A DNA stretch of 31,115 bases from Clostridiales bacterium (GTDB lineage Bacteria > Bacillota_A > Clostridia > Oscillospirales > Oscillospiraceae): contig JAAVHY010000014.1 in NCBI GenBank assembly GCA_014799485.1, positions 1-31,115 of the forward strand, in the 5' to 3' direction. Below, one piece after another: positions 2,116 through 10,878 of this stretch. The notes under the pieces were generated by a model. The model saw nothing but the letters and a program-made list of their open reading frames with translations, was not told the DNA's origin and did not search any database. The translations under genes and the position numbers were made by a program. Positions within the stretch are counted from its first letter, which is position 1; each line of letters opens with the position of its first letter.

Positions 2116-4944
2116 TTACTCCAGTACCGTTTTCAGGTATTTGCCCGTGTAGCTCCCGGGGTGCTGGGCGACCTCCTCCGGCGTGCCCATGCACACCACC
2201 GTGCCGCCGCCGGAGCCGCCCTCCGGCCCCAGGTCGATGATATAGTCCGCCGTTTTGATGACGTCCAGGTTGTGCTCGATGACCACCACCGTGTTGCCCT
2301 TGTCCACGAACCGCTGGAGCACCTCCACCAGCTGGTGGACGTCGGCGGTGTGCAGGCCGGTGGTGGGCTCGTCCAGGATGTACACCGTGGAGCCGGTGGA
2401 CTGCTTGGAAAGCTCGGTGGCCAGCTTTACCCGCTGGGCCTCGCCGCCGGACAGGGTGGTGGAGGGCTGGCCCAGCTTCACGTAGCCCAGGCCCACGTCT
2501 TTCAGGGTCTTGACCCGGTTATACAGCTTGGGCAGGTTCTCGAAGAAGGGCAGGGCCTCGTCCACCGTCATCTCCAGCACCTCGTGGATATTTTTGCCCT
2601 TATACCGCACCTCCAGGGTCTCCCGGTTGTACCGCTTGCCCTTGCACACTTCGCAGGGCACGTAGATGTCGGGGAGGAAGTGCATCTCGATCTTCAGCAG
2701 GCCGTCCCCGGAGCAGGCCTCGCACCGCCCGCCCCGGACGTTGAAGGAGAACCGGCCCGGGCCGTAGCCCCGGGTCTTGGCGTCCTGGGTGGAGGCGAAC
2801 AGCTCCCGGATGTCGTTGAACAGCCCCGTGTAGGTGGCGGGGTTGGAGCGCGGGGTGCGGCCGATGGGGGACTGGTCGATGGCGATGACCTTGTCCAAAA
2901 ATTCGATGCCCTCCATGCCGTCGTGTTTGCCCGGGCGGGCCTTGGTGCGATTCAGCTCCGCGCCCAGCCGCTTGTACAAAATCTCGTTCACCAGGGAGGA
3001 CTTGCCCGACCCGGACACGCCGGTGACGGCGATGAACGTGCCCAGGGGGAAGCCCACATCGATGTGCCGCAGGTTGTTCTCCGCCGCCCCCCGGACGGTG
3101 AGGGTGTGGCCGTTCCCCTGCCGCCGCGACCCCGGGACGGGCACCTTTTTCCGGCCCGCCAGGTAGTCGCCGGTGACGGAGCCGGGGGTGTTCATGACCT
3201 CCTCCGCGGTGCCGCAGGCCACCACCTGGCCGCCGTGGACCCCCGCCCCGGGGCCGATGTCCACGATGTAGTCCGCCGCTCGCATGGTGTCCTCGTCGTG
3301 CTCCACCACGATCAGGGTGTTGCCAAGATCCCGCAGCCGCTTCAGGGTGGACAGCAGCAGGTCGTTGTCCCGCTGGTGCAGGCCGATGGACGGCTCGTCC
3401 AGGATGTACAGCACCCCCATCAGGGAGGAGCCGATCTGGGTGGCCAGCCGGATGCGCTGGCTCTCGCCGCCGGACAGGGTGCCCGCCTGCCGAGTCAGGG
3501 TCAGGTACTGCAGACCCACCGAGCGCAAAAAGCCCAGCCGGGAGCGGATCTCCTTGAGGATTTGGTCGGCGATCATGCTTTGGGTCTCGGTGAGGGTGAT
3601 GGTGTCCAGAAACGCCAGGGCCTCGTCCACCGGCTTCTCGCAGAAGTCGTGGATGGAGCTGCCCCCCACGGTGACCGCCAGGGCCTCCCGCTTGAGCCGC
3701 CTGCCCTGGCAGTCGGGGCAGGGGCACTCGCTCATGCACTCCTCGATCTCCCGCTTCATGGCGTCGGACTGGGTCTCCCGGTAGCGGCGCTCCAGGTTGT
3801 TCACGATGCCCTCGAAGGGCTGGTACAGGGTGCCCTTGCCCCGGGGCTGGTCGTAGTTCAGGGTGAGCTTTTCCCCCTTGGTGCCGTAGAGGATGATGTC
3901 CATCACCTCGCCGGACAGCTTTTCCACCGGGTCGGTGAGCTTGAAGCGGTACTTTTTCGCCAGGGCGTCAAAGTACATCCGGGAGATGCCGTCCGACTTG
4001 ATGTGGTTCCAGCCGGAGGCGCAGATGGCCCCGTCTAAAATAGACAGGGAGCGGTTGGGGATGATGCGGTCGGGGTCGACTTTGAGCTGGGCCCCCAGTC
4101 CGGTGCAGGCGGGGCAGGCACCGAAAGGGTTGTTGAAAGAGAACATCCGGGGGGTGAGCTCGTCGATGGACACGCCGCAGTCCTCGCAGGCGTAATTCTG
4201 GGAGAACAGGATGTCCCGCTCCTCGTCCCCCAGCACGTTGATGACCACGATGCCGCCGGACAGGTTGGAGGCCACCTCCACGCTGTCGGTGAGCCGCCGG
4301 GTGATGTCCTCGCGGATGACCAGCCGGTCCACCACGATCTCGATGGAGTGTTTTTTGTTCTTGTCCAGCTTGATCTCTTCCGTCAGGTCGTACAGGGAGC
4401 CGTCCGCCCGCACCCGGACGTAGCCGGATTTCCGGGCGTCCTCGAACACCTTGTTGTGCTCGCCCTTCTTGCCCCGGATGACCGGGGCCAGCACCTGGAT
4501 ACGGGTGGCCTCGGGGAGCGTCATCACCTGGTCGATGATCTGGTCGATGGTCTGCTGTTTGATCTCCTTGCCGCAGTTGGGGCAGTGGGGGGTGCCCACC
4601 CGGGCCCACAGCAGGCGGAGATAGTCGTAGATCTCCGTCACCGTGCCCACAGTGGAACGGGGGTTTTTGGAGGTGGTCTTTTGGTCGATGGAGATGGCGG
4701 GGGACAGACCCTCGATGTAGTCCACGTCCGGCTTCTCCATCTGGCCCAAAAACATCCGGGCGTAGGAGGACAGGGACTCCACATACCGCCGCTGGCCCTC
4801 GGCGTACAGCGTCTCAAAGGCCAGGGAGGACTTGCCCGACCCGGATAGGCCGGTGAGCACCACCAGCTTGTCCCGGGGGATGGTGACGTCGATATTCTTT
4901 AGATTGTTTTCTCGCGCGCCTTTGATGACGATCTTATCCTGCAT
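2116..4944 (-). CDS. uvrA: Excinuclease ABC subunit A
   Basis: The full-length protein has 942 residues, the usual length. UvrA is the damage-sensing ATPase of nucleotide excision repair; it dimerises, scans DNA and loads UvrB at lesions in the cytoplasm. Visible motifs: Walker [10 protein letters not shown] near residue 32; zinc-binding CEDC...CPAC around 250-280; first ABC signature [12 protein letters not shown] near 490 followed by Walker [14 protein letters not shown]; second Walker [10 protein letters not shown] near 640; second zinc module CEAC...CEVC around 735-765; second signature [12 protein letters not shown] followed by [10 protein letters not shown]. All key residues are intact. 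An AAGGAG site precedes the ATG at 4944, and a consensus-like promoter lies at 5002-5030. uvrB, its partner, is on the same strand about 3.7 kb upstream but belongs to a separate transcription unit. Confidence 0.98.
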
Positions 4945-5001: not shown

Positions 5002-5030
5002 AGGATAATGAAACGAATTTTTAATGTCAA
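5002..5030 (-). promoter_or_regulatory. uvrA promoter with half LexA-like site
   Basis: Reading the minus strand: -35 TTGACA (5030-5025), 17-base spacer, -10 TATCCT (5007-5002). Transcription would start about 50 bases upstream of the uvrA ATG. The spacer contains a TTCGTTTC half-site resembling one arm of the Gram-positive LexA box CGAACRNRYGTTYC, but the other arm is degenerate (AAAAA). SOS control of uvrA is normal in Bacillus relatives; here the sequence supports it only weakly. Confidence 0.75.
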
Positions 5031-5061
5031 CCCCTATTTTAGCGGATTTTTCAGGGGAATT

Positions 5062-5418
5062 CTATAAAGCGGGCAGGATGGCGTTCCAGGGCTGGAGGAT
5101 GAGCAGGGCGGCGAACACCAGCACGACAATGATCTCCCAAATCACCACGGCGGTGAGCAGAAGCTTTGCCGCCAGGAGGGCGTACCGCTTCCAGCCCTCG
5201 AAGCCATCGATAAATTCCCGATCCATCCGCCCGGTGGCCTTCCACTTGGCGCGGATGAACAGCAGCAGGGCGAGGAAGCCCGCGTTGGAGGCCAGCAGGA
5301 CCGCCGCCACCGTGGTTAATGCGAAACCCAGCCAGGGCAGGATGAAAGCCATGGCCGCCATGATGATCCACACGGGCCACAGCAGAAGCAGTAAAAACAG
5401 CACAGAAAGAAATGCCAT
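5062..5418 (-). CDS. Small polytopic membrane protein, unknown function
   Basis: The product is 118 residues with about four hydrophobic segments (residues 3-20, 22-52 which may hold two helices, and 80-110). Between them is a short charged stretch, KWKATGRMDREFIDGFEGWKRY, probably cytoplasmic. The ATG at 5418 is preceded by a perfect AAAGGAGG site. It is the last gene of the run that begins with uvrB, 19 bases after the MmcQ/YjbR gene, and ends just before the uvrA promoter. I do not recognise a named family and see no catalytic motif. Confidence 0.75.
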   Translation of the reverse strand: MAFLSVLFLLLLLWPVWIIMAAMAFILPWLGFALTTVAAVLLASNAGFLALLLFIRAKWKATGRMDREFIDGFEGWKRYALLAAKLLLTAVVIWEIIVVLVFAALLILQPWNAILPAL

Positions 5419-8463: not shown

Positions 8464-8541
8464 TTACTTTCCCTCGCCGCGCAGTTTGATGATCTGATCT
8501 CTCAGGGCGGCGGCAACTTCAAATTCCAGCATCTTGGCCGC
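8464..8541 (-). pseudogene. Orphan copy of the uvrB 3' end (26 codons including stop)
   Basis: This 78-base stretch matches the end of the intact uvrB (8681-8758) at 68 of 78 positions. It encodes [23 protein letters not shown] and a TAA stop, differing from the intact gene by one conservative change (E for D) just before the final GK. Its codons (CTGCGCGGCGAGGGAAAG) look native to this GC-rich genome, while the end of the intact gene uses TTAAGAGGAGACGGAAAA. It is separated from uvrB by a hairpin array. It still provides the ribosome binding site of the NTF2-like gene and could be read as a 22-residue mini-ORF from the ATG at 8532. Confidence 0.9.
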
Positions 8542-8680
8542 GCCCCACGCGGCAAGCCGCGCGGGGGCCCCGATTTGATTCGCTTACGGGCGGAGTGAAT
8601 CCGCCCTGCAAAATTCTCCGCTTCGCTCCGAATTTACGGCGCAAGCGCCGCCCCACCTTCGGCGGGGCCCCAGGAGGCGG
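8542..8680. repeat. Hairpin array A between uvrB and its duplicated tail
   Basis: A 139-base non-coding insert consisting almost entirely of five consecutive stem-loops: 8542-8568 (11-bp stem with one mismatch), 8588-8606 (GGGCGGA/TCCGCCC, perfect), 8611-8635 (AAATTC/GAATTT outer stem), 8637-8650 (CGGCGC/GCGCCG) and 8651-8667 (CCCCaCC/GGcGGGG). GGGGCCC(C) motifs sit near both ends. No reading frame and no transposase are present. No run of T follows a stem on the transcribed strand, so it is not an obvious terminator. A second array of the same style lies at the other end of uvrB. It resembles a non-autonomous hairpin-type repeat element; family membership could not be checked. Confidence 0.8.
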
Positions 8681-10651
8681 CTATTTTCCGTCTCCTCTTA
8701 ATTTGATGATCTGATCTCTCAAGGCGGCGGCAACTTCAAATTCCAGCATCTTCGCCGCCTCCTTCATCTGCTTCTCCAGGCTGGCGATGGCCTCCATCCG
8801 CTGGAGCTTGGTCATCTGGGACAGGTTCTTGTCGTTGTAGTCCGGCTTCTCGTCGGCGGACAGGGCCATCAGCTCCCGCACCGCCTTCTTCACTGTCTTG
8901 GGCACGATGCCGTGGGCCTGATTGAAAGCGTCCTGCTTTTCCCGGCGGCGCTCCGTCTCGTCCATAGCCCTCTGCATGGAGGGGGTGATGGTGTCGGCAT
9001 ACAAAATCACGATGCCGTCGGCGTTGCGCGCCGCACGGCCGATGGTCTGGATGAGCGACGTCTCCGAGCGCAGGAAGCCCTCCTTGTCCGCGTCCAGGAT
9101 GGCCACCAGGGACACCTCCGGCAAGTCCAGGCCCTCGCGCAGCAGGTTGATGCCCACCAGCACGTCGAACTCGCCCAGGCGCAGGTCCCGGATGATCTCC
9201 ATGCGCTCGATGGTGTCGATGTCGTGGTGCATATACCGCACCCGGATACCCGCGTTTTTCAGGTAGTCGGTCAAGCTCTCCGCCATCTTCTTGGTGAGGG
9301 TGGTGACCAGCACCCGCTCGTCCCTCGCCGTCCGGGCGGTGATCTCCCCGATCAGGTCGTCGATCTGCCCGTCCACCGGGCGCACCTCCACCTTCGGGTC
9401 CAGCAGGCCGGTGGGCCGGATGACCTGCTCCACGATCTGCCCCGAGCGCTCCCGCTCGTACTCGCCGGGGGTGGCGGAGACGTACACCACCTGGTTGAGC
9501 CGCTTCTCGAACTCATCGAATTTCAAGGGCCGGTTGTCGAAGGCGCAGGGCAGGCGGAAGCCGTACTCCACCAGGGTGGTCTTCCTCGCCCGGTCGCCGT
9601 TGAACATGGCCCGCACCTGGGGGAGCGTGGCGTGGCTCTCGTCGATGAACAGGACAAAATCCTTGGGGAAGTAGTCCAGCAGGGTGTGGGGGGGCGAGCC
9701 CTCAGGCCGGCCCTCGATGACCCGGGAGTAATTTTCGATGCCGGAGCAGTAGCCCAGCTCCTGCATCATCTCGATGTCGTACATGGTGCGCTGTTTGATG
9801 CGCTGGGCCTCGATGAGCTTGTTCTCGCCCTCGAAAAAAGCCACCCGCTCCTCCATCTCCTTATAAATATCCTGGATGGCGGCGTCCATCTTCTCCTTGG
9901 GGGTGACGTAGTGGGTGGCGGGCCAGATGGGGATGTTGTTCAGCCGCCGGATGGGGGTGCCGGTCACCACATTGATTTCAGACAGCCGGTCGATTTCGTC
10001 CCCAAAGAACTCCACCCGGATGGCGGTGTCCTTCCAGTAGGCGGGCCAGATCTCCACCGTGTCCCCCCGCACCCGGAACATATTGCGCTCAAAGGCGATG
10101 TCGTTGCGCTCATAGCGGATGGCCACCAGCTTTTTCAGCAGGTCCTCGATCTTGATGACCGTCCCCACCCGCAGGGCCACCATCATCTTGCCGTAATCCT
10201 CCGGCTCGCCCAGGCCGTAGATGCAGGACACGGAGGACACCACGATGACGTCCCGCCGCTCCAGCAGGGAGGCGGTGGCGGACAGCCGCAGGCGGTCAAT
10301 CTCCTCGTTGATGGAGGAGTCCTTCTCGATGAAGGTGTCGGTGTGGGGGATATACGCCTCGGGCTGGTAGTAGTCGTAGTAGGACACGAAATACTCCACC
10401 GCGTTGTTGGGGAAGAACTCCTTGAACTCGGCGCACAGCTGGGCGGCCAGGGTCTTGTTGTGGGCCAGTACCAGGGTGGGCCGCTGGACGGCCTCGATGA
10501 CCTTGGCCATGGTGTAGGTCTTGCCCGAGCCGGTGACGCCCAAGAGCGTCTGCTCGTCCAGGCCGTTTTCGATGCCCGCCGCCAGGGCGGCGATGGCCTC
10601 CGGCTGGTCGCCGCTGGGGGTATATTCTGATATGACTTCAAATTTTGGCAT
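8681..10651 (-). CDS. uvrB: Excinuclease ABC subunit B
   Basis: The intact 656-residue UvrB. It receives damaged DNA from UvrA, opens the helix with its beta-hairpin and recruits UvrC. Visible features: Walker A GVTGSGKT near residue 39; beta-hairpin [12 protein letters not shown] near 92; DESH box [12 protein letters not shown] near 337; helicase motifs [35 protein letters not shown] and [10 protein letters not shown]-terminal UVR domain at about 618-653 for UvrC contact. All motifs are intact. The start at 10651 has only a GGGGGA site (ATGGGGGATAACTTATG); the better GGGGGAGG site precedes an orphan start copy at 10878. Both ends are duplicated beyond hairpin arrays, and the promoter lies upstream of the 5' array, so the message has a leader of roughly 260 bases. 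Confidence 0.97.
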
Positions 10652-10835
10652 AAGTTATCCCCCATAACCATGTATCGTAATTCGCCGGCGACCAGCAGCG
10701 GGCCTATGGCCCGCCGCCGCAAATGCGGCGTACAAGTGTTTTGGCGTAAGCCAAAACCTTGGAATGGGCGGGCTCTGCCTGCCCATTCGAGTTAAATTTT
10801 GGGGCCCCCACAAAAGCGATGCTTTTGTGGGGAAA
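10652..10835. repeat. Hairpin array B between uvrB and its duplicated start
   Basis: A 184-base insert made of stem-loops: 10698-10714 (GCGGGCC/GGCCCGC), 10715-10730 (CGCCGC/GCGGCG), 10739-10756 (TTTTGGC/GCCAAAA), 10762-10788 (12-bp stem, one mismatch) and 10806-10832 (perfect 12-bp CCCCACAAAAGC stem, loop GAT). It contains GGGGCCCC at 10801-10808 as array A does. On the uvrB-coding strand it now forms the 5' leader of uvrB. The 34 bases next to the intact start (10652-10685) are unstructured and supply the present ribosome binding site. No protein is encoded. Confidence 0.8.
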
Positions 10836-10878
10836 CGCCGCTGGGGGTATATTCCGATATGACTTCAAATTTTGGCAT
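10792..10878 (-). pseudogene. Orphan uvrB start: 28-codon upstream ORF running into hairpin array B
   Basis: Bases 10836-10878 match the intact uvrB start (10609-10651) at 42 of 43 positions and encode [14 protein letters not shown], then the frame runs into the hairpin array (VSPQKHRFCGGPKI) and stops at 10792. It keeps the strong GGGGGAGGAACTGTC ribosome binding site and lies directly downstream of the uvrB promoter, so it is probably translated as an upstream ORF. It is either the remnant of the original uvrB start or one half of an insertion-associated duplication. Confidence 0.88.

Follow-up and report, generated by a model that had tools for sequence, protein, structure and literature searches.

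Structured hairpin elements between duplicated gene ends in Oscillospiraceae may be target-specific, gene-end-restoring units

Mobile open reading frames (mORFs) and the gene hybrids that they form are known in fungal mitochondria, namely in Allomyces atp6, Rhizopus atp9, Mortierella cox2 and Glomus atp6, atp9, cox2 and nad3 (PMC3630166). According to that report, a mORF insertion brings a foreign C-terminus together with an endonuclease gene and displaces the native C-terminus; in Glomus, DNA identity to the gene of the relative is 64–81% for the inserted C-termini and 91–98% for the native ones, and protein identities are 94–100%, the copy being unspecified (PMC3630166). Here we describe a 31,115-nucleotide (nt) stretch from a Clostridiales bacterium of the Oscillospiraceae (GenBank assembly GCA_014799485.1, contig JAAVHY010000014.1, positions 1 to 31,115; the whole stretch is called the window), in which uvrB has a comparable arrangement at either end. 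Each arrangement, or unit, consists of a gene-end copy (T), a short complement of the insertion site (X') and a hairpin element (E). As in the mORFs of that report, the element is situated close to where a conserved gene ends and supplies a C-terminus that replaces the displaced native one. The mORFs described there encode an endonuclease, whereas the Oscillospiraceae units are made of a structured element and a site complement; the units also lie in bacterial chromosomes, occur at gene starts too and have 62 distinct targets. By this analogy, fungal mitochondrial mORFs are the nearest described systems.

Mobile group I and group II introns occupy conserved sites in conserved genes and have an internal segment that pairs with the sequences flanking the insertion site. 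Likewise, the units sit at conserved sites in conserved genes and X' complements both sides of the cut. Unlike in such introns, a copied gene end restores coding, E is antisense to the gene in 22 of 104 records, and no Rfam family, intron families included, matched the window at the gathering score or four loci at an E-value of 0.1. Repetitive extragenic palindromic (REP) sequences and bacterial interspersed mosaic elements (BIME), miniature inverted-repeat transposable elements (MITEs), repeat units of pneumococcus (RUP) and enterobacterial repetitive intergenic consensus (ERIC) sequences are short, non-coding palindromic repeats with many copies per genome near gene ends, all of which can be said of the units as well. 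To our knowledge, these repeats come with short duplications at most and lack a target-specific complement. The units differ from REP in that a Y1 transposase is absent from the three highest-copy genomes, and from MITEs and insertion sequences in that there is no short duplication of fixed length: the distance from cut to stop varies from 22 to 114 nt, and at 55 of 80 sites the repeat is as long as this distance to within 10 nt. OMEGA (obligate mobile element-guided activity) systems, built on IscB or TnpB, place a guide of about 15 nt beside a multi-hairpin scaffold, much as an X' of about 15 nt lies beside the multi-hairpin E; in contrast to OMEGA, no nuclease reading frame accompanies the unit, and neither IscB nor TnpB tracks its copy number.

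The gene in question is an intact open reading frame of 656 amino acids on the minus strand (8,681–10,651), 97% identical in amino acids to its relative L001, which we take to be uvrB from its sequence and that of its relatives. A preliminary description had reported that its ends are duplicated around hairpin arrays, and this is borne out: the tail direct repeat (8,465–8,541 versus 8,682–8,758) measures 77 nt at 88% identity, and the head repeat (10,609–10,651 versus 10,836–10,878) is identical at 42/43 positions. GC-rich hairpin arrays fill both intervals. The head array folds better than all shuffled sequences (z −9.4, 0/200 as good), whereas the fold of the tail array is weaker (z −2.2, 5/200 as good). 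In the tail unit, all parts of which lie on the minus strand, the translated uvrB end including its stop codon is the gene-end copy (8,681–8,758); X' follows right after the stop codon (8,671–8,680, CCGCCTCC versus the gene's GGAGGCGG), then E in the sense of the gene (8,542–8,672), then the displaced native end (8,464–8,541), whose stop overlaps the next start codon (TAAATG). In the head unit, the translated uvrB start (10,609–10,651, minus strand) is served by a stretch resembling a ribosome-binding site (10,652–10,685, minus strand; GGGGGA upstream of ATG, by eye), and such copied and native stretches look alike by eye in L016 and L023. X' (10,686–10,696, CGGCGACCAGC versus GCTGGTCGCCG) and E (10,697–10,832) lie on the plus strand, antisense to the gene. 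The displaced native start (10,836–10,878, minus strand) has upstream of it a native ribosome-binding-like site and a promoter-like region; also upstream lies ATTAAAACGTTCGTTCTA, which by eye is the same upstream of uvrB in the unit-free relative L004 and altered in L001 and L003. The outer copies thus look like displaced native ends, as first supposed, and the arrangement is indeed an unusual one.

The same layout recurs widely. A covariance model (R1), described below, yielded 118 hits, of which 115 were used after three weak or partial ones were left out, and 112 had enough flank; 80 stretches were fetched by coordinates and the remaining loci came from searches. Other array copies flanked by gene-end duplications, which the preliminary description had proposed to look for, are numerous: a direct repeat across E with a score of at least 20 was found at 98/112 copies (99th percentile of the null between different loci, 20.5), and in those 98 the native, downstream copy begins 0–5 nt after E. 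With the uvrB and uvrA cases added, 111/124 records have a flanking repeat and the junction lies inside a coding gene in 104 of the 111; the other 7 have a weak coding score from a codon caller trained on uvrB only. The 124 records count some loci twice (L081/L019, L102/L006 and L120/L016), and the distinct sites number 99 (80 tail, 19 head). Read in the orientation of the element, the order is X | T-copy, X', E | T-native, where X is the part of the gene before the cut and T holds the stop if E is sense or the start if E is antisense. E has the sense of the gene in 82/104 records and is antisense in the 22 mentioned, and unit orientation seems to follow the gene. A bias of replication strand was considered and rejected, as in a near-complete genome the gene of one tail unit appears to run against its replichore, inferred from the strands of other units. 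At 78/80 distinct tail sites the cut lies 22–114 nt before the stop, the exceptions being 610 and, inside a tandem array, −3; at the 19 head sites it lies about 33–103 nt after the start, under a rule that allowed a start only 20–120 nt away. The repeat ends no more than 3 nt from the stop at 35 of the 80 tail sites and no more than 10 nt from it at 55; at 19 it extends beyond the stop by over 10 nt, and at 6 it ends over 10 nt before it. Some long repeats copy a terminator-like hairpin with the gene end (L170, L184 and L169, by eye), and tandem units are also among the longer ones. No fixed motif was seen by eye at the junctions.

Tandem arrays of units (L006:4585–4955, L016:1671–2023, L151:1036–1552, L159, L161 and L149) fit what unequal crossing-over between T copies would produce. 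A second kind of element, with the core GAGGAGGAGCAAGGGAG and ends of about GCGGACTTTGCGACGACGA, was also seen between gene-end copies (cores at L169:854–870, L169:4887–4903 and L184:1132–1148), and its core occurs at L025:162–178 too. At L169 near 1029 a T copy separates it from E, and at L184 and at L169 near 4950 it stands directly before E; a second family may use the same gene-end layout.

When the reverse complement of the site was sought in the stretch preceding E, the mean score over the 99 sites was 11.1, compared with 6.0 for mismatched pairs and 6.9 for the same strand. The score lies above the 99% null at 59/99 sites and above the 95% null at 69/99. Matched bases centre on the junction, from about −7 to +8, and X' is thus about 15 nt long. 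In unfiltered pairs of units at the same target in different genomes, which are not independent, X' fits its own site better than the swapped one in 35/51 pairs, worse in 6 and equally in 10; a separate filtered version required an own pairing of at least 9, which favours its result. Since own pairing beats swapped pairing in these 35 pairs, X' co-varies with the host site. By eye, X' at several sites, for example those of L020, L023, L170 and L182, fits both sides of the cut with a mismatch close to it.

Both copies of the gene end bear the mark of coding constraint. The codon test left out 14/82 tail records (11 for length differences, 1 for low identity, 2 as duplicate or too short) and 6/22 head records. 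The 68 tail pairs of T copies differ at 224 codons synonymously and at 58 nonsynonymously, against 67.7 and 231.3 under simulated neutral change; the 16 head pairs show 33 and 8, against 9.8 and 34.5. Synonymous changes are in excess in 72/85 pairs and nonsynonymous ones in 6, with 7 ties, and the tail pairs stripped of their last four codons still show 166 synonymous to 32 nonsynonymous. As long neutral decay predicts an excess of nonsynonymous changes, the dominance of synonymous ones suggests that the displaced end belonged to a functional gene until recently, or that it still does so in some of the population. At uvrB and gpmI, both T copies carry changes of their own (by eye); at scale, changes were counted between copies and are unpolarised. 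Error-prone recoding of T was considered and rejected, codon preference having no strong direction (the copy has the commoner codon 116 times, the native end 145 times). The median synonymous divergence ratio of uvrB tails is 1.38 for pairs with one unit-bearing member, 1.56 with two and 1.24 with none, a modest excess that also counts against recoding.

The arrays of the window had been thought to differ in sequence and to share style. They share more than style: they are members of one family in opposite orientations, E being a structured multi-hairpin element of ~135 nt. R1, built from 7 uvrB-flanking arrays, matches the head array on the plus strand with 105.5 bits and the tail array on the minus strand with 65.4 bits; the former is among the source sequences and the latter is not. 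The same search gave one new copy at the uvrA end in L021; uvrA of the window (2,116–4,944), near uvrB, is without a unit. In the shared orientation the common order is X' and then two GC hairpins; next come a CAAGyGTTTTG..CAAAACCTTG hairpin and one whose loop is often AATTCA, and the order closes with a spacer, usually GGGGnCCCC, and a last hairpin. The tail copies of the window, L002 and L015 have other sequence in place of the CAAGyGTTTTG..CAAAACCTTG hairpin, and L035 seemingly has one GC hairpin fewer. Among 115 distinct copies, 34/35 base pairs covary, that is, are changed at both positions in one or more sequences, and double-changed pair cells number 823 versus 237 in shuffles; the alignment (A2) was fitted to the model from 7 sequences, so pair counts lean towards structure. 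G-T cells outnumber A-C cells by 71:8 in tail units, 12:1 in head units and 13:4 in unclassified ones (binomial p 1e-13 for tail, 0.003 for head). Because this holds in both tail and head units, the E-sense strand appears to be under selection as a single strand of RNA or DNA, also in those units in which it runs antisense to the gene. From these pairing patterns, E seems to act single-stranded and probably as RNA.

Copy numbers in 15 relatives' genomes range from 0 to at least 63, with at least one copy in 14/15. For these counts at most 150 candidates per genome were scored, and the scans of family and class used stricter filters, so that all counts are minimum values. At least 55/150 genomes in the family of G007 have a match and 95/150 gave none; in the class sample, 2/245 match, G007 itself and G080, both of which are also in the family sample. 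As far as searched, the family of elements is confined to that of Flavonifractor plautii (Oscillospiraceae). The exact core hairpin pattern occurs in only 2 stretches of IMG/VR (contigs L199 and L200), and carriage by phages was rejected on this ground.

The 98 units have 62 distinct targets, uvrB included, 18 of which were seen in at least two genomes. Thirty target proteins were scanned against NCBIfam at an E-value of 1e-15, as pieces of at most 300 amino acids, many of which fall below curated whole-protein cut-offs; L167 and L139 had no match and 28 did. The latter are SecA, a PRK05313-type protein, TypA, IF-2, MnmG, malic enzyme, a HinT-like protein, dGTPase, EutL, GroEL, EF-G, an AraC-type regulator, TsaD, UvrC, chorismate synthase, LepA, 3,5-diaminohexanoate dehydrogenase, PolC, EutC, AlaRS, RNase III, MutL, NAD synthase, MutS2, AsnRS, EF-Tu, enolase and a CopA-type ATPase. 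Further targets, which we take from their sequences to be UvrB, UvrA (L021) and phosphoglycerate mutase (gpmI), complete the picture of many conserved, often housekeeping genes. At gpmI, 4/32 loci have a unit, cut within about 2 nt of one place (DLMG|L) in four genomes; L112 and L169 were included as already known, L209 is from the query's own genome, and L211 is the sole carrier among the 29 others. Within each genome, both T copies of gpmI share species-specific features.

Among 80 related uvrB loci, 78 with both gene ends were scored together with the window (79 genes). The tail repeat occurs alone in L002, L015, L019, L020 and L035, the head repeat alone in L006 and L016, and both occur in L023 as in the window; the close relatives L001, L003 and L004 lack both. 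Found singly in relatives, head and tail units are mutually independent and patchy, and L016 has two full head copies in tandem while L006 has one full and one partial copy. The presence of the same repeats at uvrB of several relatives shows that the observation is not due to chance. Nor are the repeats an assembly fault of a single record, as 21/23 fetched copies in two genomes with one contig spanning about the whole genome (4.3 and 2.9 Mb) have a flanking repeat with a score of at least 20.

E copies at the same target in different genomes are often alike. An identity of at least 0.70 was reached by 12/59 such pairs (10/32 without uvrB), by 8/665 pairs from the same genome and by 25/4023 other pairs. 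Since high identity is commoner between same-target pairs, many units look like target-specific lineages rather than like a transposon now spreading within genomes.

The anatomy of the units, the family of elements, their location at gene ends and the coding constraint are, in our judgement, practically certain. For the interpretation that the units are target-specific, gene-end-restoring elements of a homing type with an RNA-guide-like part, the scales are evenly balanced; we favour it because it explains X' co-variation and coding constraint together. It is rather doubtful, though conceivable, that guidance is by RNA through X'. Our proposal, a tentative one, is of protein-free RNA-guided homing, in which a unit carries its own guide X' on an RNA scaffold, together with a copy of the gene end that rescues the target, and spreads in either orientation through unit-free alleles of one gene with a host or other nuclease provided in trans. 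T of the unit takes the place of the native end, leaving it beyond E, and the gene stays intact. X' and E, transcribed as guide and scaffold, would recognise the same site in unit-free alleles of that gene within the species, and the unit would move by being copied into them under the guidance of X', bringing its own T, while the enzyme would act in trans. Unit-bearing and unit-free alleles would keep exchanging by recombination, which would explain the appearance of both T copies as coding sequence in use until recently.

Several observations weigh against homing of this kind. A nearby repeat is lacking in 13/124 records, one of which (L126) has a repeat about 400 nt away, and two near-identical E copies without close gene-end repeats (L177:992–1121 and 5012–5141) each lie beside a terminator-like hairpin and an apparent antisense tRNA gene (tRNA by eye). 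X' does not exceed the 99% null at 40/99 sites, or the 95% null at 30/99. Presence and absence differ between species only, with no strain-level difference seen, and a unit-bearing allele retains the X|T site, which leaves its protection from renewed attack unexplained. In the displaced copy of gpmI, nonsynonymous changes were seen by eye in L209, L211 and L112, and the constraint on it may be weaker. Of the same-target E pairs, 47/59 do not reach 0.70, and the position of the uvrB tail cut varies from lineage to lineage. E copies of one genome resemble each other slightly more than unrelated ones do (0.558 versus 0.544, p 7e-8), so units may to some extent have spread from target to target inside a genome. 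Finally, no enzyme family tested in the 15 genomes tracks copy number, and each is absent from several high-copy genomes. IscB exceeded its cut-off in 0/15; a TnpB-type domain was found in 7/15 and is absent from G009, G011 and G012 (at least 40, 22 and 20 copies); Y1 transposase was found in 4/15, with no match in G007, G010 and G013, which have the highest copy numbers; the reverse transcriptase domain RVT_1 exceeded its cut-off in 6/15, with no match in G009, G010, G011, G012 and G013; and IS110 occurs in 4/15 without tracking copy number. Single units of a few hundred nt, comprising gene-end copy, X' and E, are too small for a homing endonuclease gene, a statement from size made without a unit-by-unit search for reading frames.

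The preliminary description had offered insertion of a hairpin element that duplicates a long target segment as one of two explanations. In its present form, a MITE-like hairpin would insert with a target duplication of 20–115 nt, only insertions that restore the gene end would survive, and X' and the constraint would be by-products. This comes nearer to the data, as direct repeats flank 98/112 copies, T copies of gpmI share species-specific residues within a genome, tandem units occur and same-genome E copies are slightly closer than unrelated ones. However, a duplicate outside the stop should decay neutrally, and synonymous changes dominate instead; the co-variation of X' with its site is left unexplained, high identity of E is commoner for the same target than for the same genome, and no tested transposase family tracks the copies. 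On balance we consider such insertion unlikely.

A self-excising, intron-like RNA is an improbable alternative. Here T-copy, X' and E would leave the mRNA, X' would pair with both exon edges like the internal guide of group I introns, and both ends would be translated. X' does span the joint as a splint would, the native T is constrained as coding sequence and E mostly has the sense of the gene. Splicing could therefore account for constraint and X' where the unit is a tail unit; it fails for head units, in which E is antisense and yet the layout, the excess of G-T over A-C (12 versus 1) and the constraint (33 synonymous, 8 nonsynonymous) are the same. The searches of Rfam noted above found no intron, and no splice-site consensus was seen by eye at the junctions. 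We attach as little probability to a host function, in which E would be a beneficial gene-end RNA selected for stability, termination or regulation and the duplicate an old scar refreshed by gene conversion. Strong conservation of structure, the likeness of some same-target units across genomes and the similarity of T copies within a genome would agree with this. Against it, the units are absent at the same gene in the close relatives L001, L003 and L004 and, under strict filters, E has no match in 95/150 family genomes; they are used at starts and at ends and in either sense, and a host function gives no reason for X' or for constraint on an untranslated copy. The other explanation offered at the outset, that one incoming uvrB cassette with both arrays replaced the native gene and left its ends outside, is very improbable: the outer ends do look native and the uvrB tails of the window and of L006, which is without a tail unit and may have lost one, differ from L001, L003 and L004 at 0.60–0.65 of same-amino-acid codons compared with 0.17–0.20 in the gene body, but the window uvrB is about equally similar to L001, L003, L004 and L006 throughout its length (identity 0.87–0.97 per 150 nt), relatives have head and tail units independently of each other, and the same units are found at other genes.

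Among the matches listed in the open-licence literature of PubMed Central we found no report of such units, which may be in print beyond that scope; the family is apparently undescribed. If the proposed homing is true, small protein-free units colonise housekeeping genes across many members of a bacterial family without breaking them, as a natural counterpart of synthetic rescue drives. They would then form a new class of guided mobile element, whose target complement co-evolves with the gene, and would be a lead to a new guided enzyme. Even if the units are immobile, an explanation is needed for the presence, in some genomes, of structured elements at dozens of genes whose ends are duplicated and still constrained, and both annotation pipelines and work on recombination in gut Oscillospiraceae should take these elements into account.

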